NCBI GenBank assembly: GCA_016204275.1
Contig: JACQKZ010000003.1
Location: 1-50,285, forward strand
Direction of reading: 5' to 3'
From: Nanobdellati archaeon
Lineage (GTDB): Archaea; Nanobdellota; Nanobdellia; UBA10117
DNA length: 50,285 nt
In this document: positions 1,866 through 12,555 of the stretch, one piece after another
How the letters are laid out: the number at the start of each line of letters is the position of its first letter
Numbering within the stretch: the first letter of the stretch is position 1
The notes under the pieces: generated by a model
Database searches by the model: none
Told to the model about the DNA's origin: nothing
Seen by the model: only the letters and a program-made list of their open reading frames with translations
Program-made: the position numbers and the translations under genes

Positions 1866-2981
1866 TTATTTATTGCTTCTAACCCTGCGCCAGTATCTCT
1901 CGTAATCTTCGAGGAATTTTTTAACTGCCTTGTCTTTCTTTACATGGTTATTTACATAAACCGCAGCTACGCCAAGAACAAAAATAACAATGAATGCTGC
2001 AATTAGGCTGGCTGGCTTAGCTGAGAAATAGCGAGCTGCTGGCAGGCCAAGCGTTGATACTACTTGAAATGATGAGCTGCCCTTTACTGTTAAGCCGTTT
2101 GTTTTTGCCACAACCCTAAATCTATATTGTCCGGATGGAAGTCCATGCGGAATGTTTATTTTTCTTACTATGCTCGTGGTAGTTTCAACAGCGATTGTTT
2201 CCTTGCCTATCGCGAGCTCATTGTCATCTGCATCAACAACAAAATAACTAATTGTGACATCTTTTCGACCAGGTGAGCCGAAATTTGACAATGTTATTGT
2301 TACTAAAATATCGCTGCCGCTATCTACGACGCGGTAGCCCTCCACTATATCAACTAACACATCCAAAAGCGGCGCGTTTGAAATCTCAAATTTATCTGCT
2401 GTAAATTCGTGTCTGCCGCCCGCAAAGCCTGTTGAAGCTGCTGTCCCGGACTGCCCGCCGAACACGCCAAAGGTTGAAAAGTGCGTTGTTAATCCAGTGA
2501 CTTCATTTATTGATGTATTAACCGCGCCAGGCAGAATGTCCCAGTTTCCGCTCTCATTGTTAATACTATAAACACGCAGGCTGCTTTCATCTAAACCAGC
2601 TACATCAGAATCGTCATAATTAATTACTATTGTGGCATTTGCAAAACTTAGGTTGCTCTGAATCTCGAGGAATTTTCCTATTGACTCTTTTTGCAGCGGC
2701 TGGCTTTGGACTGGATTTGCGCTTTCTGCAGTCACATTCAAAAAGCCGCCCGATGAAGTGTTGGTGCGGAAAACCAGCGTAACATTCAATCCTGTTTGAA
2801 ATGTTGTGTTAGCAGTCTGGTTGCTTATCTGCACGTCCTCGCGGAAGAAATTATTTGAACTTACAACAAAAAATCTGACACTGCCAGTTGCCGCGCTGCT
2901 TATTATTTCGTTTGTCAGCCCTTGGCTTACTATGACTGCGCCGATGGCCAGCAACAGCAGGACAAACAGATATGGCTTCAT
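1866..2981 (-). CDS. Secreted, C-terminally membrane-anchored surface protein
   Basis: Signal peptide MKPYLFVLLLLAIGAVIVSQG; PGF-pre-PGF-like segment (W..LPGAVNTSINEVTGLTTHFSTFGVFG); beta-rich domain; C-terminal TM plus basic tail. Overlaps the next gene by 4 nt. Confidence 0.7.
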   Translation of the reverse strand: MKPYLFVLLLLAIGAVIVSQGLTNEIISSAATGSVRFFVVSSNNFFREDVQISNQTANTTFQTGLNVTLVFRTNTSSGGFLNVTAESANPVQSQPLQKESIGKFLEIQSNLSFANATIVINYDDSDVAGLDESSLRVYSINNESGNWDILPGAVNTSINEVTGLTTHFSTFGVFGGQSGTAASTGFAGGRHEFTADKFEISNAPLLDVLVDIVEGYRVVDSGSDILVTITLSNFGSPGRKDVTISYFVVDADDNELAIGKETIAVETTTSIVRKINIPHGLPSGQYRFRVVAKTNGLTVKGSSSFQVVSTLGLPAARYFSAKPASLIAAFIVIFVLGVAAVYVNNHVKKDKAVKKFLEDYERYWRRVRSNK

Positions 2982-4105
2982 CGCTTTTTCCCCTTGGCCA
3001 GCCTTATGCCAATTACAATTAACACTGCAAGCAAAGCTACAAGCAGCCAGCTGAATTCAAAGCTTACAATCTGGATTTTGCCTTTTCCTGTCGAGGTTTT
3101 ATTTTCGTAATGAAGCGCCGCCTCTATGTCATACTCGCCGGCATTTAGGCCGCGCGCGTCCCAGAAGATTGTTGATGTGCCTGCTGTGAATGGCTCAACT
3201 GAAAATTGCTGGCCCTGTGTTTCTGCGATTTTGTTTTGGTTTTTGTAAATCTTTACTTCTGGCTGGACATTTTTAATTGCCTCGCTCCACTGGCTTTCAT
3301 AGTCTACCAAAATTTTTCCTATTGTGTCTTTTTTGATGTTATCGCCGTAAACTTTTATTATGTTTATTACTAAGTCACCAACCCGAAAATTTGTTTCTGT
3401 TGATTTTTTAATTCCATCGTAAGTTACTTCCGCGTTTGCATGGTACTTGCCTGCAACAAAACCGGATGTTTTTATTTCTGTCTCCATGATTTTTGATTCT
3501 GTTGGCTTGAGATTTGACTCAGACAAAATTGCTGCGGCTGTTCTTTTGTTTTTTGAATCAAATATTTCAAATACTGCCGTGATTTTTTCGATTGTTTCCT
3601 TGCCGCGGTTTGTAACTTTCAGGCTGAGCTGTGCTGGCTGGCCTGCATTCGTATTTTGTATGTAAAACTGGTCAATCGTCAGGTATTTTCCTGGGATTGG
3701 AACTTCTACTAAAACAAATAATTCAACTCCGACCCGTGCGCCGACTTGGCCGCCTGCGCCCGCGCTTTCAACCGCGCCGATCCTTACTTTATGCTGGCCA
3801 GGGCTCAAATCATCTGGAAGCTTTGCAGTGAATGAAAAGCCGCGGGTTTCTTTCGGCTTTATAATTGCCTTTGTTTGCGATAAATTAAAATATTTCGCGG
3901 CCTCTTCGTCGCCGGCAACGTAAAGCTCTATTGGTTTTTCTGCGTCTGCTTCATTTACGACAATAAACTCTGATTTGTACTCCTTGCCTTGTTCAAATGA
4001 AAGCTCGATTCTTGCCGGGCCTATGCCTAACGCATAAGTTGCCTGAAAAAGAAACAATGCTAGAATTACCGGCAGGAATATCTTGACGTGCATTTTACTC
4101 ACCAT
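2978..4105 (-). CDS. Secreted beta-sandwich protein with C-terminal TM (NEW3/COG1361/DUF916-like)
   Basis: GPARIELSFEQGKEYKSEFIVVNEADAEKPIELYV...LPDDLSPGQHKVRIGAV; C-terminal TM and RLAKGKKR tail. Similar N-terminal domain to 5184-6059. Confidence 0.65.
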   Translation of the reverse strand: MVSKMHVKIFLPVILALFLFQATYALGIGPARIELSFEQGKEYKSEFIVVNEADAEKPIELYVAGDEEAAKYFNLSQTKAIIKPKETRGFSFTAKLPDDLSPGQHKVRIGAVESAGAGGQVGARVGVELFVLVEVPIPGKYLTIDQFYIQNTNAGQPAQLSLKVTNRGKETIEKITAVFEIFDSKNKRTAAAILSESNLKPTESKIMETEIKTSGFVAGKYHANAEVTYDGIKKSTETNFRVGDLVINIIKVYGDNIKKDTIGKILVDYESQWSEAIKNVQPEVKIYKNQNKIAETQGQQFSVEPFTAGTSTIFWDARGLNAGEYDIEAALHYENKTSTGKGKIQIVSFEFSWLLVALLAVLIVIGIRLAKGKKR

Positions 4106-4710
4106 GCAGGGCTTGCTGTGAATGTTACTGTTGAGGTTTTGTTGCCGACCGGCTCATGCGTAGGTACTGTTATGTTTATGTGGAAAAATAGCTGATTTAT
4201 TGTCTGAAAGCTCAGGTTTGCATAATTTGGGACGCCTGGCGCCGCGAGCGGCATATTTGCCCAGCCGGTCGAGTTAATTGTTGTGTTTACCCTGCCGATT
4301 GTCGACGCATCGGAACAGTTTGCGCCCCACGGCGTTTCTGCCCCTGAAGCGTTCCCGCACCGTACCATGTAGTAATTGCTAGCTGCGGCGACAGTGCTAA
4401 ACAACTGCGTTGCGGATATTGTTATGTTAACATCAATGTTGCCAGAATTATTTATTACAAATGGCCCTGGCCTACCTGCCACCTGTGCGGATGGCGGAAA
4501 TGACGAATTCTGCTGGCTTGGCTGCAGCACTCCAAGATCAACCGTGTCGTTAATAAGTGTTATCTGAACAAGGCTTCTAACTGTAACATTTGTAACTCCA
4601 GTCGGCGCGCCTGTAATCTGCGCAGCATGAAAATTAACGAGGGTGAGCGAAGCGGCCATGAATAAAAGCAGTACAACTATTCTGGCGATGCCCTTATGTG
4701 TTACTGCCAT
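4099..4710 (-). CDS. Secreted Asn/Thr-rich protein with a C-terminal domain shared with the 1445-aa protein
   Basis: N-terminal hydrophobic segment; LGVLQPSQQNSSFPP...FVINNSGNIDVNITI...HINITVPTHEPVGNKTSTVTFTASPAW. Confidence 0.65.
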   Translation of the reverse strand: MAVTHKGIARIVVLLLFMAASLTLVNFHAAQITGAPTGVTNVTVRSLVQITLINDTVDLGVLQPSQQNSSFPPSAQVAGRPGPFVINNSGNIDVNITISATQLFSTVAAASNYYMVRCGNASGAETPWGANCSDASTIGRVNTTINSTGWANMPLAAPGVPNYANLSFQTINQLFFHINITVPTHEPVGNKTSTVTFTASPAW

Positions 4711-4943
4711 CTCGGCCCCCTTGTGCCTGCTATCAAACCACTAACTGGAATTGTTACTTCTGTGTTTTCCTGCGTTTGATTTTCAGGTGCAACAACCTGC
4801 ACCACGACTTTGCCTGTGGCCATCGACCTACTTGGCTGATCATACTGGCTGGCATAGGCAAAGGCAGCCGCTGTGAATAATATAAGGGCTAACATCAGCA
4901 ATGCTTCACTCCACCCACTGTGGTTTTTAGTTCTGCGTGCCAT
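4701..4943 (-). CDS. Small single-pass membrane protein of surface operon A
   Basis: 80-aa ORF with one TM; ATG directly follows the stop of the upstream gene and its end overlaps the downstream start. Confidence 0.6.
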   Translation of the reverse strand: MARRTKNHSGWSEALLMLALILFTAAAFAYASQYDQPSRSMATGKVVVQVVAPENQTQENTEVTIPVSGLIAGTRGPRWQ

Positions 4944-5150
4944 TTACTTTTTCCCAAGCAGCTCTTTTAGCTTATGCTTTATAATTTCTTCTATGTCGTC
5001 TTTCTTGCCTTTTGTTGAAAGCTGTGACTGCATGTAAAACTCAAAGCCTTTTGACATCTTCAGGCCGCGCTCTGAACAGAATTTTTTATATTTATTATAA
5101 AGATTTTTATCTACAAACAGTGTGATTGCTTTTTTATTATCTGTTGCCAT
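4944..5150 (-). CDS. Ribbon-helix-helix-like small DNA-binding protein (operon A)
   Basis: MATDNKKAITLFVDKNLYNKYKKFCSERGLKMSKGFEFYMQSQL; basic beta strand then two helices. Confidence 0.55.
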   Translation of the reverse strand: MATDNKKAITLFVDKNLYNKYKKFCSERGLKMSKGFEFYMQSQLSTKGKKDDIEEIIKHKLKELLGKK

Positions 5151-5183
5151 TATTTAACGTTATTTAATGGCATTTAACAGTAT

Positions 5184-6059
5184 TTAAGTCTTTCTGAGCC
5201 TGCGCCAGACAAAAATTACCGAGTCTATTATTATAATAAATACTATCGCGGCAATAAGCAGGAAATCCAGCTTGGGGCTGGCAGGCACGTCAACCGCAGC
5301 GCTGCCAGTAATGCCAGATGAAACGCGGACTGACTTTTTTACCGAGCTTTTGCCGAAATAAACTACTACGTCTATTTTGTAATCACTTGCCTTTGCCAGA
5401 ACATTGTCTAGCTCTGCTGTCAGCGTTTCCTCCTCTCCAGCTGGCACGGGTTTGCTGGCTGTTTTTACATTTCCCGCGCCAGTATCTGCTTCTATTTTAG
5501 CTTCTGCATACGCGTCCGCGGCGGCATTGCCTGAATTTCTTATGTTTACTTCTAGTTTAGCGCCGCCATCGCTTTTTGATATTGAAACGCCCAGCAACGC
5601 TATCTCTGCGGACTGCTGGCCTGCTGTATTTTGGCCGATTTCTCTGGTAGGATTTCCAGCCGAGCCAATGCGAAAAATTGTTTCGACAGCAGCAACCGCG
5701 GATATTTGCCCGCCGCCGGCTTTAACCGCCGCGCCGATGCGGGCTTCATCTCCTTTTGGAAGCGCTGCAGGCCAGTGCACTTTTATCTTAATTCTTTCCT
5801 CTTTATTTGCACCTAACGCCAAGGAATCTGACGGAAGTTCTATGTAACTTGCCAGCGGGCCTTTTTTGTATAATTTTATCTCATTTGCCTGCGGCGCATT
5901 ATTTATAATTATTATTTCATACTCTGAAATTTGATTTGGCGTGAACTCTGCATTAATATTGCCAGGTGCAATCGCTACCGCTTCCGCAGCCTGCGGCAGC
6001 AAGAGCAAGCCAGCTAGCAATAGAATGCCTGCCATTATCATTCTTGTTTTTTCTTTCAT
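5184..6059 (-). CDS. Secreted beta-sandwich protein with C-terminal TM (operon B, paralog of 2978-4105)
   Basis: Signal peptide; VAIAPGNINAEFTPNQISEYEIIIINNAPQANEIKLY...LPKGDEARIGAAV; C-terminal TM and WRRLRKT tail. Confidence 0.65.
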   Translation of the reverse strand: MKEKTRMIMAGILLLAGLLLLPQAAEAVAIAPGNINAEFTPNQISEYEIIIINNAPQANEIKLYKKGPLASYIELPSDSLALGANKEERIKIKVHWPAALPKGDEARIGAAVKAGGGQISAVAAVETIFRIGSAGNPTREIGQNTAGQQSAEIALLGVSISKSDGGAKLEVNIRNSGNAAADAYAEAKIEADTGAGNVKTASKPVPAGEEETLTAELDNVLAKASDYKIDVVVYFGKSSVKKSVRVSSGITGSAAVDVPASPKLDFLLIAAIVFIIIIDSVIFVWRRLRKT

Positions 6060-6081
6060 ATTTAATATTATTTAATACTAT

Positions 6082-9000
6082 TTAGTACGCCGCTGCCGCG
6101 GTGAATGTTACTGTTGAAGTAAGGTTTGCCGGTGGCTCACCCTGTGGAATTGTAATATTTATGTGCGTCCTGATTTCATCGTTCCCATCTGTGAAATTAG
6201 TCATGTTGGCTATCATTACTGGCGAGCCTGTGAGCGGAATATTTAGGAAACTAGCAATCAATTCTATTGCGGCGTTCCGAACCGAGTTTGTTTCATTGAC
6301 TTCAGATTTAAACTGGAAGTAACGGCTTGGATTCAGAATTGATGTGAATAAGCTATCTGCTTCTATTGTTATGTTAACTGCAAAGTTGCCTGTGTTGTTT
6401 ATCACGAACGGCAGTGGGTTGTAGCCTGCGTCCGTTCCTGTGCTGTTAAAACCGCCTGGCTGGAGTGTGCTGAATTGCATTGGCGTGTTCGCGATTGATA
6501 TGCTGACTGTTTTTAGCAGTGAGAAATTTTGTATGAATGTTACATTTGTGTTATTTGTGCTATCATTAAGCATAATATACCAGCCTATATTCTGCCCGCC
6601 TTCTAGGCTAAAGTTTGCCCACGTGAAATTTACAAGCTGTTTTGTTGTGTTTCCGCCAAGCTGCTGTGGCGAGCCGTATTTATTTGTCCAGTTTACCCAC
6701 ACGCCTGTTTCATTTGTCACAAGGTATGCCCATGTCAGATTTGTTTCATCCTGCGCCTGCGCGGACAGGTAAAGTTCCCCGAACTGCGAGACTGAGTTTG
6801 CGCTCTGGGCCTGCGTGTCCCAGGTTGGTGGGGTTGTGTCTACGCTTGAGCCTGTCGGATTATATGTCTGTTCAGTAGACCACGCGCTTCTTGCAAATCC
6901 AGTGTCTATTGTTTGAACATACCAATAGTATATTGTATCATTTGGAATCGCCAGCGAAACCCTCTGGCGCTTTTGCATGTTGCCGAACAACCCGCCAGCC
7001 GATGGACCAGCACCGCCATACGCGCCAGAAGTTATATTCTGACAGCCGGTGCATGTTCCAATACGCAGATTGTAGTAAAGTCCGCCAGTTGGTGTTTCTG
7101 TGTCTGAGCCCGCATTCCACGTGAAGTTTATACTGTTTAAACCATTTGAAACCGTACTAAAAGTCGTTGGCGGGCTTGGCTGTGTGTTTGTATTATTCAA
7201 GTGTATGTCGTTTGTATACATTTGTGTTACGTTCCGACCGCCAGCAGGTGTTGTCTGCCCAGTCACCAACAAATCTAAATCAGAATCGTTTGTAAAATCA
7301 GCAAGCACTATGTCGCCATGATTTGCTGAAGTAATTTCAGACTCGAACGGAATATTATTCTGAAAATTTGTGTTATTATTAAGATAAACCTGAACATCTG
7401 CTGCAGGCGTCGTTGCATTATTAAAACCCTGTGCAACCAAATCAAGCCAGCCATCGTTATTAATATCGCCAAACGCGGCATTGCCATTGATGAGCGGCGT
7501 AATATTGGCCTGCCATGTCGCATTTTCCATAAGCGCGGTTTTATTATTGATATAAACCCTTGCTGTCTGAGGTTGCCTGCCAGCTATCAACTGTATTAAA
7601 TCCATCAGGCCATCGTTGTTTATATCTGCAGCATGCAACGTAGAAGTTGATGAATTAGTAAGATTAACGCCAAAAGTAACATTATAGTTGAAGTTTGTTC
7701 CGTTGTTTGTATAAATTCCTGTTTGGTTTGTCAGCGCCTTTTTGCCTGCTATCAGCAAGTCCAGCCTCGTATCATTGTCAAAGTCCGCAAGCACTATGGA
7801 TGAGTAATTCAGTCCCATAAGCTCGCGGCTGAATGTTGCGCTGTAATTCAGATATGTATGATTGTTAAGATATACGCCAGTCCATGAAAAATGCCTTGTC
7901 AATGGTGCAGCCGCGAAAAAGAATTCTGCAGTACCAGATACTACTGCATCTGGCCAACCATCACCATTTATATCACCAACCGCTATCGAGCCGTTGTATA
8001 TTGGTGTGAGGTTCGCGCCCCACGTGCTGTTTGCAACAAATTTTGTTCCATCGTTTGTGTAAACAAAAATCTTGCGGTTCGGCAATAATATTGTATCGTT
8101 CTGCCCGGAAATTATCAAATCGAGCCTGCCATCATTATCAAAATCCGCCAATGCCAGCGCCCCACCGCCAACTGGCGTTATATTTGCCTCCCAAGTCCTG
8201 TTATGTATCATGCCGTACAGATTATCACTTGTTTTTCCGTAAGTATACACGCGCGTGACTGGGCTCGGAATTGTTGTACTTAAATTCAATCCCATTATTA
8301 CAAAATCCATAAAACCATCATTGTCAATATCGCCGGTAGCTATCGCACTTCTAGTAAGACCAGTTATATTGCCTCCGAATGTATTGTTAAGCCTCAAGCC
8401 TGGCGAGATGGTAAAATTCTGCCAGCCAGTGCTAGAATTAATATTAGCTGTGTCGTTCGCGTATATCCGCCACGACACCTTCTGGCCGGGCTTCGCAGTA
8501 ATCAGTGTTATATTTGATGCTATGCCCGATGCTGGGTTGCCAGTAAAAAATGCTGCTGTCGAATTCACGTTTTTATCTGTGCTTTGGTTTAAGGAAAACC
8601 ACTGGCTTGACAGCATGTTGTTGTCTGTGACCTGCGCACTAAAGTTTATCCAGTAGTTTTGTTTAATATCTTGTGATTGATTTGCCTGTCCGCTGCCTAT
8701 TGACGGCGGCACAGAATCGTTGAACACCATGTATGTAAAAAATATTTTATTAATCCACGTCGCGCCTGTCCTGAGAGTGGCTGGCTGCGGCTCGGTCTGC
8801 GTACTTATTAGAGCAAATGTTCCATTTCCTGTTGCAGCTAAATTCGTATCGTTGTTAATCATAGAAACTGTACGGCGGATGAGCGAATTTCCTTTTATTA
8901 CTTTTACAAACGAGCTGACTCCATCAGAAATATTTGTTGTTGTGTTAAAAAAATTCACGGTCGCATTTGACATCGCTATTGTGTAAACAAATGAACTAAG

Positions 9001-10419
9001 CCTGTTTGTTATTATGTTGAGGCCTGACGCTTCGGGTATTATAATATTTACGTTTGTGTTATTTGTATTCTGCTCCCACGGCGTGTTGTAACCGAAATAT
9101 TGTGCAGTTTTCTGGTATGGGAATGCGGTTTTTGGGTAAGTGTAAGTAACATATAATATCGCGTGCGCAGAATCTGATGTGGCTGCAGAATATGTTACAT
9201 TCAGCCTTACTATCGTGCCATTTGTCAGGCTTGCCTTTGCTTCAGTCAGATTGTATATGACATGATGCTCGCTCATAGTTTCGCCCGGCGAATTCAGCTG
9301 AAATTTTGTGCAGTTAACATCCGCGCTGCCGATCTTTCCGCAGACAAGCGCGCTACCAGCAGTAGTGGCTGTCCACCCGAGCACTGTATGCGCCCAAATC
9401 TGCTGCATTTGTGTGCCCGTTTCGGGCAAAAAGAATATTGTTGACATATTTTTTGTTGCTGTGCTTGGCGTATCGCCGCTGTCTGGCATCGGGTAGGCAA
9501 CAGTCTTTGTAAGCGTGTTTTGGTTTGCCCGCGTATAGTTATAAGTTATAAAAATCTCGCCGCCGATTGGCTCAAAAACCTGGCCGGTATTATTAACTGT
9601 TATTGATTGCTGCTTGTTTACTGCAAAGTTTGTTCCGCTCAGATTAAAAAGAAATTGCGTGTCATAGGAAGCAGATGTTCCGCACTCGATATAAAGCGGT
9701 TTTGCCAAATCCGCACTGTTGCCGCTTATGTTTACATGCAAAAGCGCATCCGCTGTTGTCGCGCAGTCTACCCAGCCGTAAATAGCCGCCCATTGGCTAA
9801 GTATAGATTCATTTTCAGCAATAGTTGTGTTAAAATCCATGTTTATAGATTTAGCCGCTGCAATTGTAGTGTTCCAAGAATAGATTGGAAAAATCGCGGT
9901 GTTTATCTGCGATGGTGATGTGTCATCATATTCGTATGTTACCCATAAAACTGCATTATGCTGGTTTGTTGTCTCGCCTGTTACGCGCACAGATACATTC
10001 AGACCCATAGTTCCGGGCCAGCTGAAGCCTGTTAGGAATGGTGTAACATCTGCATAAACATAAAACGGGTATTCTTCTGCTACAGAGCCAAGATAGTATT
10101 TTGGCTTTGTATTATTTGCCACTGAGCGCTGCGTGCCGTTGACAAGCAGCGTTACATTAACAACCTGTACAGCTGATGCTGACGTAGCAACCGCCCTAAA
10201 TTCTACCCAAGCGCTTCGTATTATCACGTTACTCTCTGGTATTGTTACTAAAGCCGAACTAGAATCCCAAAACGCGTTTGCAGCCACGTCAGACTGGGCA
10301 TTCTGAAGGCGCTGATCGATGAAGTAACCCACTGTTTTAATCTGCTGGCCTGCCTCTGCAAATGGCATGGCAGCTATCAGCGAAAAAATCAATAGCAAAA
10401 TCGCAATTATTAGTTTCAT
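6082..10419 (-). CDS. Giant secreted surface protein with seven FG-GAP/VCBS-like repeats (predicted beta-propeller)
   Basis: 1445 aa; signal peptide; seven motifs: GDIDNDGFMDFVIMG, ADFDNDGRLDLIISG, GDINGDGWPDAVVSG, ADFDNDTRLDLLIAG, ADINNDGLMDLIQLI, GDINNDGWLDLVAQG, ADFTNDSDLDLLVTG; many N-x-S/T sequons. Confidence 0.85.
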   Translation of the reverse strand: MKLIIAILLLIFSLIAAMPFAEAGQQIKTVGYFIDQRLQNAQSDVAANAFWDSSSALVTIPESNVIIRSAWVEFRAVATSASAVQVVNVTLLVNGTQRSVANNTKPKYYLGSVAEEYPFYVYADVTPFLTGFSWPGTMGLNVSVRVTGETTNQHNAVLWVTYEYDDTSPSQINTAIFPIYSWNTTIAAAKSINMDFNTTIAENESILSQWAAIYGWVDCATTADALLHVNISGNSADLAKPLYIECGTSASYDTQFLFNLSGTNFAVNKQQSITVNNTGQVFEPIGGEIFITYNYTRANQNTLTKTVAYPMPDSGDTPSTATKNMSTIFFLPETGTQMQQIWAHTVLGWTATTAGSALVCGKIGSADVNCTKFQLNSPGETMSEHHVIYNLTEAKASLTNGTIVRLNVTYSAATSDSAHAILYVTYTYPKTAFPYQKTAQYFGYNTPWEQNTNNTNVNIIIPEASGLNIITNRLSSFVYTIAMSNATVNFFNTTTNISDGVSSFVKVIKGNSLIRRTVSMINNDTNLAATGNGTFALISTQTEPQPATLRTGATWINKIFFTYMVFNDSVPPSIGSGQANQSQDIKQNYWINFSAQVTDNNMLSSQWFSLNQSTDKNVNSTAAFFTGNPASGIASNITLITAKPGQKVSWRIYANDTANINSSTGWQNFTISPGLRLNNTFGGNITGLTRSAIATGDIDNDGFMDFVIMGLNLSTTIPSPVTRVYTYGKTSDNLYGMIHNRTWEANITPVGGGALALADFDNDGRLDLIISGQNDTILLPNRKIFVYTNDGTKFVANSTWGANLTPIYNGSIAVGDINGDGWPDAVVSGTAEFFFAAAPLTRHFSWTGVYLNNHTYLNYSATFSRELMGLNYSSIVLADFDNDTRLDLLIAGKKALTNQTGIYTNNGTNFNYNVTFGVNLTNSSTSTLHAADINNDGLMDLIQLIAGRQPQTARVYINNKTALMENATWQANITPLINGNAAFGDINNDGWLDLVAQGFNNATTPAADVQVYLNNNTNFQNNIPFESEITSANHGDIVLADFTNDSDLDLLVTGQTTPAGGRNVTQMYTNDIHLNNTNTQPSPPTTFSTVSNGLNSINFTWNAGSDTETPTGGLYYNLRIGTCTGCQNITSGAYGGAGPSAGGLFGNMQKRQRVSLAIPNDTIYYWYVQTIDTGFARSAWSTEQTYNPTGSSVDTTPPTWDTQAQSANSVSQFGELYLSAQAQDETNLTWAYLVTNETGVWVNWTNKYGSPQQLGGNTTKQLVNFTWANFSLEGGQNIGWYIMLNDSTNNTNVTFIQNFSLLKTVSISIANTPMQFSTLQPGGFNSTGTDAGYNPLPFVINNTGNFAVNITIEADSLFTSILNPSRYFQFKSEVNETNSVRNAAIELIASFLNIPLTGSPVMIANMTNFTDGNDEIRTHINITIPQGEPPANLTSTVTFTAAAAY

Positions 10420-10616
10420 TTAAGCAGCTCCTGGATTTTCTTTTTTATTTTAATATCCAAGCTGGAAAAATCTGGGTTTGCAAGCTCACCTTCCATAAAG
10501 CGCTCAAACCTTTTAGAAGCAACTAGCCCGTTTTTTTCACAATACTTTCTGAACTGTTCGTAAAGTGCACTGTCTAAGAAGAAGGTTACTGCTTTTTTCT
10601 TGCAAGTATTTGAAAT
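10416..10616 (-). CDS. Ribbon-helix-helix-like small DNA-binding protein (operon B; non-ATG start, probably ATT)
   Basis: Frame reads (I)SNTCKKKAVTFFLDSALYEQFRKYCEKNGLVASKRFERFMEGELANPDFSSLDIKIKKKIQELLK*, clearly similar to 4944-5150. Stop overlaps the ATG of the 1445-aa gene (ATGA). Absent from the ORF track. Confidence 0.6.
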   Translation of the reverse strand: MSNTCKKKAVTFFLDSALYEQFRKYCEKNGLVASKRFERFMEGELANPDFSSLDIKIKKKIQELLK

Positions 10617-10675: not shown

Positions 10676-11404
10676 CTAGGAAAATGTAAAATCGTCGATA
10701 AGAAATGAATCCCTGCCATTGTTCGCAGGGAAATTTCCAGTTAGCTTAAACTTAATAAATCTGGTTTGTGGCAGGGTTGTAAAAGTTACGCTTACTTTTT
10801 TCCACTGGCCGGCTTTTTGCGACTGAACAATTGCCAGCCCCGATGCCCAGACAGAAACATTGTCAAAATTTACTAAATCATCTGAGTCCAAGCCTAAAAA
10901 GTTTTCATCAAACTGCTGGAGCTGTACCGTTGCAAAATCGGTATCGCCGCCACTGCGCATATAATTTTCGCTGAATGATACAGTATGTGTGCTATCGGGC
11001 TCAACTGAAATTGTGGCACTTTCTATCCAATTATCTAGTTTTTCGTCCCGGCTAACAAGCTTTGCTGTGTCTACTAGCATAGCATTTCCGTGCACACCTC
11101 TCCCCTGCGCATCTGCAACATAGTAACCTGGATCAGTATCATCAGCATCCGGTGCGTAGAATAAACGATGCTCGTGTTTCAGATAAAAGCCAGCAGGCAT
11201 TTTCACATTATCTGGCCTGCCAGCTTCGAAATCTGCTGAAAACGCGGGCCCGCCCAAAACGGCCAGTCCAGTTATAGCACCACTAGAAATGTTGAAACCT
11301 GCAAACACAACAGCAGATAAAATTATTACAAAGAAAAACGCCATGGCTCTTTGTTTATTATGTTTGTTGGTTTGTCCGGCCATACAAACATTAGTGCGGC
11401 GCAT
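10676..11404 (-). CDS. Secreted protein with C-terminal lectin/CBM-like jelly-roll domain
   Basis: N-terminal hydrophobic segment; SADFEAGRPDNVKMPAGFYLKHE...FLIDDFTFS matches the C-terminal layout of 11452-12555. Confidence 0.6.
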   Translation of the reverse strand: MRRTNVCMAGQTNKHNKQRAMAFFFVIILSAVVFAGFNISSGAITGLAVLGGPAFSADFEAGRPDNVKMPAGFYLKHEHRLFYAPDADDTDPGYYVADAQGRGVHGNAMLVDTAKLVSRDEKLDNWIESATISVEPDSTHTVSFSENYMRSGGDTDFATVQLQQFDENFLGLDSDDLVNFDNVSVWASGLAIVQSQKAGQWKKVSVTFTTLPQTRFIKFKLTGNFPANNGRDSFLIDDFTFS

Positions 11405-11451
11405 ATTAAAAGTGTTGCTGTTCCATCAAAAAAACAAAAATACTCGTACAG

Positions 11452-12555
11452 CTATGCATACGAAAAGTCATCCAGATAGTACACGTCCTGGCCGACATTG
11501 TTAAGGTTGTACTGCTGGAAAGCCAGTTTTGCCTGTGTTGCACTTGCATCTGTTGTCAGCGTTGCTGTAACCTTGAGCCAGCCATTGCCTGCGGCCGCGC
11601 TGGAGACTGTAACGTAATCGCGTATGCTTACCGCTTCAATGGCATTAAAATTTATCAAATCGCCGGTTTGCCCAAGGAAGTTATTCGCATCATCTAGCTC
11701 ATAATAATAAATAATGCCAAAATCAGTTGAATCCTTGTTTGGCAGGTATTTTGTGTAGAATGTGAAAGTATATTGCCTGCTGCCATTCACTGCGAATGCG
11801 CCAGTTTCAAGCCATGTGTCCGAACTGAACACTTCTGGATGCATTATCGTAGCATTGAACTTCAAGCTGTGCAACAACGTAAAAGCAGTATCCTGTGAAT
11901 AAACGTCGTACGGTGAATCCGCTAAATCATCTGCATTAAATGTTTCAAACGTATTTTTTAAATAAACTCCGAGCGGCATACTTGTTTTACTTGCCCGCGG
12001 CAGTTCAAAATTGTTTGAGTACTGGCCTATCGGATTGCCGACCGGCGCGTAGGTAGAAAAATGATCAACGACTGCCCATACGTAATGTTTTTTCTTGTTA
12101 ACGCCGGCATTCAGCGGCACTATCCAGTTATTAGCAGCGCTATCCCAGAAATTTAATTTCAACGAACTTTCAGACACATAATTTTTCAGTTTCGCAGGAT
12201 CATATTTTACCCGAATTTCTGCGTGATCGAATGGCTTGTCTGCTTTTATATCAAAAAATTTGTCAAGCCCGCCATATGTTCCGTCCCTATTAGGATCGAT
12301 TATTGTTGGATCTATTATTGGTTTTATAGTTACATTCAGTTTCTGTGCTGCCCAAACATAAACCGTAACGCCGAGAGTGGTATTGCTAAATGTATATTTA
12401 CTTAATGTTATAGCGGACGCTGATGTGCTCGAAGTGCTAAAATCTGCATCACTATTATCATCTTTATCTTCTTTTGCAATAGCAACAGAGCTAACTAGTA
12501 ACAACGCAGTTAAAAATATCCCGAACAGAAACAGTGCTTTTCCCATGCTTACCAC
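11452..12555 (-). CDS. Secreted protein: HFS-type domain plus C-terminal lectin/CBM-like domain
   Basis: Signal peptide; ESSLKLNFWDSAANNWIVPLNAGVNKKKHYVWAVVDHFSTYAPVG; NNFELPRASKTSMPLGVYLKN...VYYLDDFSYA. Confidence 0.6.
   Translation of the reverse strand: MVSMGKALFLFGIFLTALLLVSSVAIAKEDKDDNSDADFSTSSTSASAITLSKYTFSNTTLGVTVYVWAAQKLNVTIKPIIDPTIIDPNRDGTYGGLDKFFDIKADKPFDHAEIRVKYDPAKLKNYVSESSLKLNFWDSAANNWIVPLNAGVNKKKHYVWAVVDHFSTYAPVGNPIGQYSNNFELPRASKTSMPLGVYLKNTFETFNADDLADSPYDVYSQDTAFTLLHSLKFNATIMHPEVFSSDTWLETGAFAVNGSRQYTFTFYTKYLPNKDSTDFGIIYYYELDDANNFLGQTGDLINFNAIEAVSIRDYVTVSSAAAGNGWLKVTATLTTDASATQAKLAFQQYNLNNVGQDVYYLDDFSYA

Follow-up and report, generated by a model that had tools for sequence, protein, structure and literature searches.

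Paralogous modules of a secreted protein and its membrane anchor in a DPANN archaeon probably form a WxL/WxLIP-like surface complex

Two neighboring operons in the small genome of an uncultured archaeon (0.70 Mb, 68% complete) each encode a secreted protein next to a membrane-anchored one. An initial annotation of the window (the whole stretch of DNA analyzed, 50,285 nucleotides, on a 50-kb contig) likened this pairing to the WxL/DUF916 surface complexes of Gram-positive bacteria. Is the locus a WxL cluster in an archaeon, a different system built along the same lines, or a set of generic surface proteins? Its features are as follows, in the order of reading.

10418..10616, minus strand: RHH-B, ribbon-helix-helix-like putative regulator, 65–66 aa; overlaps the giant gene
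6082..10419, minus strand: giant secreted protein, 1445 aa, with FG-GAP repeats (FG-GAP_3, E 1.7e-29) and a C-terminal SML domain
6085..6663, minus strand: SML domain closing the giant at its C-terminus; aligns with the 203-aa protein at 38% identity (E 5e-15; alignment A2)
5184..6059, minus strand: TM291, the giant's anchor, 291 aa, with signal peptide, PGBD-like and HBD-like domains and C-terminal TM helix
5151..5183, minus strand: AT-rich inter-operon gap, 33 bp, with TTAAATA elements read directly; putative promoter
4944..5150, minus strand: RHH-A, ribbon-helix-helix-like putative regulator, 68 aa
4701..4943, minus strand: P80, 80-aa peptide with N-terminal TM helix and a single strand motif, GKVVVQV
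4099..4710, minus strand: small SML protein, 203 aa, with N-terminal TM/signal segment and one SML domain
2978..4105, minus strand: WIP375, the small protein's anchor, 375 aa, with signal peptide, PGBD-like domain (N), an HBD-like domain in duplicate (M and C) and C-terminal TM helix
1866..2981, minus strand: module-terminal protein, 371 aa, with signal peptide, TM helix and basic cytosolic tail

Operon B comprises RHH-B, the giant and the 291-aa anchor; operon A comprises RHH-A, P80, the 203-aa secreted protein, the 375-aa anchor and the 371-aa protein, and all genes lie on the minus strand. The two paralogous modules thus stand where they had been placed (10616–5184 and 5150–1866), with motifs and gene order correct, although the 80-aa TM peptide of operon A (4943–4701) had been missed. 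From RHH-B to the 371-aa gene, the intergenic spacings are −2, 22, 33, 0, −10, −7 and −4 nt, so that the proposed translational coupling of these overlapping or closely spaced genes is plausible. Operons A and B, only 33 bp apart, may share one transcript, and the TTAAATA elements right before the ATG of RHH-A are a possible leaderless internal promoter. Upstream of RHH-B (10676–12555, minus strand) lie two secreted proteins of 242 and 367 aa with a common C-terminal jelly-roll-like domain that has weak choice-of-anchor J and CBM matches; this pair adjoins the locus across the genus.

RHH-A is a relative of RHH-B (43% identity), and the sequence pattern of both fits a ribbon-helix-helix protein, with an N-terminal strand and two helices. 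Neither had a Pfam match above the cut-off, and the best PDB match of the RHH profile (A10) was weak: 2kel (E 0.0067), which we take to be the RHH protein SvtR. The RHH-B frame is open only from an ATT, without an in-frame ATG, GTG or TTG near the start; it may use a rare ATT start or have lost its start codon. An ortholog at locus L017 starts with ATG. The RHH proteins would regulate the modules. We rejected the idea that RHH and P80 form a toxin–antitoxin pair, as P80-type peptides occur in other families without any RHH protein.

The secreted proteins do have a common C-terminal domain, here called SML: the 203-aa protein aligns with the last ~165 residues of the giant, and the motifs quoted in the initial annotation are present in both. 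No Pfam family recognizes this domain. A single-sequence search of 93 relatives found it in 12 genomes, both as ~200-aa proteins and as the C-termini of giants of up to 2629 aa, and a profile search of 280 genomes of the class (Woesearchaeota, Pacearchaeota and kin) found it in 102. Giants are open frames of a few hundred to about 5000 aa whose N-terminal modules are FG-GAP in the window and LamG, or none recognized, elsewhere; we infer that they are adhesins. The structure model of SML had low confidence (pLDDT 67.3). In many loci, a ~135-aa TM-anchored protein lies 3′ of the anchor of the small SML protein (L021:14624-15043, L022:8766-9173, L023:7757-8173, L024:4967-5377, L026:8363-8749); it matches parts of the SML profile and is, judged by its sequence, a third, minimal SML relative. 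Iterative clustering of the S135 family drifted into every beta-sandwich and was not used.

Anchors of one type accompany both secreted proteins, as had been claimed; the 291-aa and 375-aa anchors are homologous to each other. Both carry an N-terminal hydrophobic stretch and a C-terminal TM helix, as do most of their relatives. Profile searches found the anchor in 109 of the 280 class genomes, and overall the locus is present in roughly one third of those sampled; the named relatives that carry it are Woesearchaeota, Pacearchaeota and Nanoarchaeia MAGs. Among the 150 SML matches listed, 122 (in at least 71 genomes) had a same-strand anchor no more than 2.5 kb downstream, which in 89 was within 200 bp; an anchor lay upstream in 29 and on the opposite strand in none. 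These counts are lower bounds.

We mapped the locus in eleven genomes besides that of the window and in eleven named MAGs, of which three repeat loci of the first set. A typical locus holds a giant ending in SML with its anchor, and an SML-only small protein with its anchor. The recurring order is the giant, its anchor, P80, the small SML protein, its anchor, the ~135-aa relative and a protein with signal peptide, TM helix and cytosolic tail; relatives of the 371-aa protein end the module in several genomes. Of the order RHH–secreted–anchor, for which a search in other archaea had been suggested, the secreted–anchor part is conserved across families outside the window. Among the mapped loci, RHH genes adjoin the modules in no genus but that of the window, and outside it other predicted DNA-binding proteins do so. 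Between giant and anchor, Pacearchaeota and some Woesearchaeota have a ~150–165-aa single-TM protein with an 'ILIDDN..FSSP'-like pattern (L046:6657-7148, L047:3127-3621, L049:10436-10936, L050:963-1439, L052:4782-5231). The small SML gene of L046 (8693-9887) is broken into several frames, by frameshifts or assembly errors, and the anchor downstream is intact.

Anchors group by partner type and not by species. On a quick anchor tree with several long branches, the labels "giant partner" and "small partner" required 2 changes, against a mean of 10.8 after shuffling, and none of 500 shuffles was as low; on the SML-domain tree, 4 changes were required against 13.7. A starred clade unites 11 giant-partner anchors from many families, and the anchor of the window's giant belongs to another, shorter group of giant partners, which has support 90 and no star. 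Because the grouping follows the partner, the pairs appear to be old and cognate. The simplest reading of these sequences is an old duplication of the two-gene module followed by partner-specific descent, a duplication that most simply predates the divergence of the sampled families. The locus is real, conserved and coherent. We consider it likely that its two paralogous modules, each an adhesin plus its anchor, belong to a surface complex tethered to the membrane and working like bacterial WxL/WxLIP.

P80 bears on a different use of the same proteins. In P80-type peptides, the pattern [GA]-x-[VI]-x-[LVF]-x-[VIL] was found 3′ of the TM helix in 12 of 12, although it had been defined on these same sequences after they were seen; in 2000 shuffling trials, the mean was 0.41 and the maximum 4 of 12. 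Strand donation is suggested by the likeness of the motif to the strand with which small SML proteins begin, and a P80-seeded profile recruits SML N-termini. P80 peptides might then be membrane-anchored strand donors that complete the SML sandwich and hand SML to the anchor or to a growing chain, which we regard as rather unlikely; if true, it would be a donor-strand surface display system of DPANN archaea without described counterpart. The whole locus could also be cast as a filament assembled by donor-strand complementation, with SML as the incomplete subunit, the giant as tip adhesin (N-terminal binding modules plus a C-terminal pilin domain), P80 as strand donor at the base and the anchor as a chaperone-like assembly factor. 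Archaeal threads work by the donor-strand principle (PMC9715654), and in the low-confidence SML model (pLDDT 67), the N-terminal stretch is an uncovered coil. The fold search with this model gave nothing significant: the top match was the PapD–PapE pilus subunit (E 0.034), with CanA cannulae lower. In most loci, however, small SML genes number one or two, nothing points to polymerization, and nearly every SML copy has a TM-anchored partner, which fits tethering better. We judge the filament unlikely and continue with the tethered complex.

We compared profiles of the anchor and the bacterial WxLIP (DUF916-DUF3324) by hhalign, with signal peptide and TM helix removed. The bacterial WxLIP and WxL sequences (alignments A3 and A4) came from plasmids carried by lactic acid bacteria and their relatives; E-values are per single comparison. 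The anchor N domain matched PGBD (probability 93, E 3.4e-7) and not HBD (0.7), whereas the C domain matched HBD (90, E 1.5e-6) and not PGBD (0.4). Over both domains, the match to PGBD+HBD was collinear, with a probability of 95.9 (E 5.5e-9, 203 columns), in line with the likeness to DUF916 that had been proposed for the anchors; reversed decoy targets scored 0.2–7 and crossed domain pairs under 1. The 291-aa anchor, which has no middle domain, has the exact WxLIP layout. WIP375 reached 30.8 bits as a whole protein with Pfam WxLIP_HBD (cut-off 28.9), which matches 9 of 20 anchors. Of 29 unbiased class-wide matches to this model, 13 were anchors, including the top 3 and both of those above the cut-off, which under single-domain scoring was passed in 2 of 280 genomes; the PGBD cut-off was reached nowhere in the class. 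WxLIP_HBD also matches a 642–644-aa family (genus g19, family f13) that is not an anchor of the SML system (G070:C24:15674-15949, G044:C2:75965-76243). PF06030 (WxLIP_PGBD) has matches outside Bacilli, in the control genomes of Thermotoga maritima and Methanosarcina acetivorans; this domain may predate the WxL system and be more widespread.

The model of WIP375 was of high confidence (pLDDT 92.4). In Foldseek, the solved WxLIP 9i1y_A ranked 17th (E 4.8e-11) and was the first prokaryotic match, the ranks above it being multi-Ig ciliary proteins; 9i25 was matched as well. TM-scores were low (0.31–0.39), probably because the orientation and number of domains differ. Residues 114–123, the weakest stretch of the model, form an N-domain loop that is possibly the counterpart of the WxLIP hairpin, which we offer as a lead only; beyond an 'LP..G' motif, the global alignment of the N domain with PGBD is weak (probability 39). 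The motif NQIDKxxxYFDLK, present near the N-terminus in the bacterial alignment A3, occurs in none of the 20 anchors of alignment A1. Searching PDB sequences with the profiles of anchor and SML gave nothing useful.

Could this resemblance simply reflect Ig-type ancestry? The genes might encode generic Ig-type surface glycoproteins, co-transcribed for an envelope or S-layer-like structure, whose WxLIP likeness derives from NEW3/Ig ancestry without any WxL-like pairing. Each of the three anchor domains is matched by NEW3 with a probability of 93–96, and the fold matches of the anchor are mostly to multi-Ig proteins. The middle domain, a duplicate of the C domain (probability 99.2), matches HBD as well as the C domain does; part of the resemblance is therefore generic Ig, and we rejected HBD similarity of a single domain as a specific sign. 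Yet the collinear, domain-specific order of PGBD then HBD is matched better by the anchors than by NEW3 domains of the same class, which scored 66 against PGBD and 8 against HBD, and neither the strict adjacency of adhesin and anchor nor the grouping of anchors by partner favors a generic origin. We find this explanation quite improbable. At the level of remote homology between sequences, the anchor's resemblance to WxLIP, PGBD-like then HBD-like, appears to hold.

The secreted domain gives a different answer. WxL domains have been described as exclusively bacterial (PMC9772566), and the published WxL cluster consists of a small protein, a large protein and a WxLIP (PMC10599100). VNITI and VTFTA stand in SML where WxL has GWxLTV and LTWxL, and neither of the two Trp-x-Leu motifs is present. 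The Pfam WxL model matched none of 25 SML members, and PF13731 matched none of 188 class genomes, with a positive Lactococcus control. We therefore rejected WxL membership of SML. Against the WxL profile, SML showed similarity confined to the C-terminal hairpin (VP...TVTFT versus VP...TLTW; 36–39 columns, probability 18–23), with a score of 27.9 against a maximum of 16.1 among 100 column-shuffled decoys, and the Pfam TasA models, which had been named as another possible kin, gave no match. That hairpin and the same cluster make-up would suit acquisition of a WxL cluster from Gram-positive bacteria and divergence of its WxL domain past recognition, but with wide presence and deep duplication within the archaeal class, no intermediate WxL domain in the 188 genomes searched with PF13731 and no NQIDK motif in the anchors, this is scarcely credible. 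Adjacent genes for at least one WxLIP and for two WxL proteins, one small and one large, define a WxL gene cluster; the locus matches this in layout, but its secreted proteins are not WxL.

The best reading is thus a system that is WxL/WxLIP-like by its layout and its anchor but uses a different beta-sandwich secreted domain, and is not a WxL cluster. The proposed analogy stands for layout and anchor, with remote homology and a match to a solved WxLIP, and falls for the secreted domain. Neither result named in advance as speaking against the initial reading arose, since profile similarity is present and the gene order recurs in other genomes. The tethered complex draws on the sequences and their homology, on gene order, on the co-inheritance of anchors with their partners and on the remote PGBD/HBD similarity of the anchors. 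By analogy, each SML domain would be held at the outer face of the membrane by a dedicated Ig-type anchor with one C-terminal TM helix, and the anchor would bind SML, its N-terminal domain being the probable site, in the way known for WxLIP and WxL. In module B, FG-GAP, LamG or other modules of the giant would reach out toward other cells or polymers; in module A, the SML domain is on its own.

With its occurrence in about one third of sampled genomes of this DPANN class, its giant proteins and its dedicated membrane tethers, the locus is a good, testable candidate for how these presumed-symbiont archaea attach to other cells. The WxLIP-type principle, which until now has been described as bacterial (PMC9772566), would thereby reach archaea, where it works with another secreted domain. 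The locus also points to protein families missing from Pfam. In the literature covered (mostly freely accessible papers, with few subscription papers or preprints), we found no description of the archaeal locus.

Among known systems, archaeal threads (Saci_0406; PMC9715654) and TasA-type filaments likewise have a secreted beta-sandwich whose N-terminal strand could be donated. They have no significant sequence or fold match to the SML locus, and neither a TM-anchored partner nor giant proteins belong to the published thread system (PMC9715654). In archaeal surface proteins, the Ig-type domains NEW3/NPCBM_assoc and CARDB have the general beta-sandwich in common with the anchors, all of whose domains NEW3 matches, but the anchors match PGBD and HBD better.

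Archaea lack bacterial peptidoglycan, and in this, the host differs from those of WxL/WxLIP systems. SML, without both Trp-x-Leu motifs, is a separate family; there is usually one anchor per secreted protein, whereas WxLIP occurs once per cluster; and many archaeal anchors have a duplicated HBD-like domain and none has the NQIDK motif. As in the WxL/WxLIP clusters of Lactobacillales and Bacillales (PMC10599100, PMC9772566; PDB 9i25, 9i1y), a small protein consists of the domain only, a large protein carries it at the C-terminus behind N-terminal binding modules, the partner combines a signal peptide, PGBD-like and HBD-like domains and a C-terminal TM helix, and the gene of the small protein lies immediately upstream of that of its partner.
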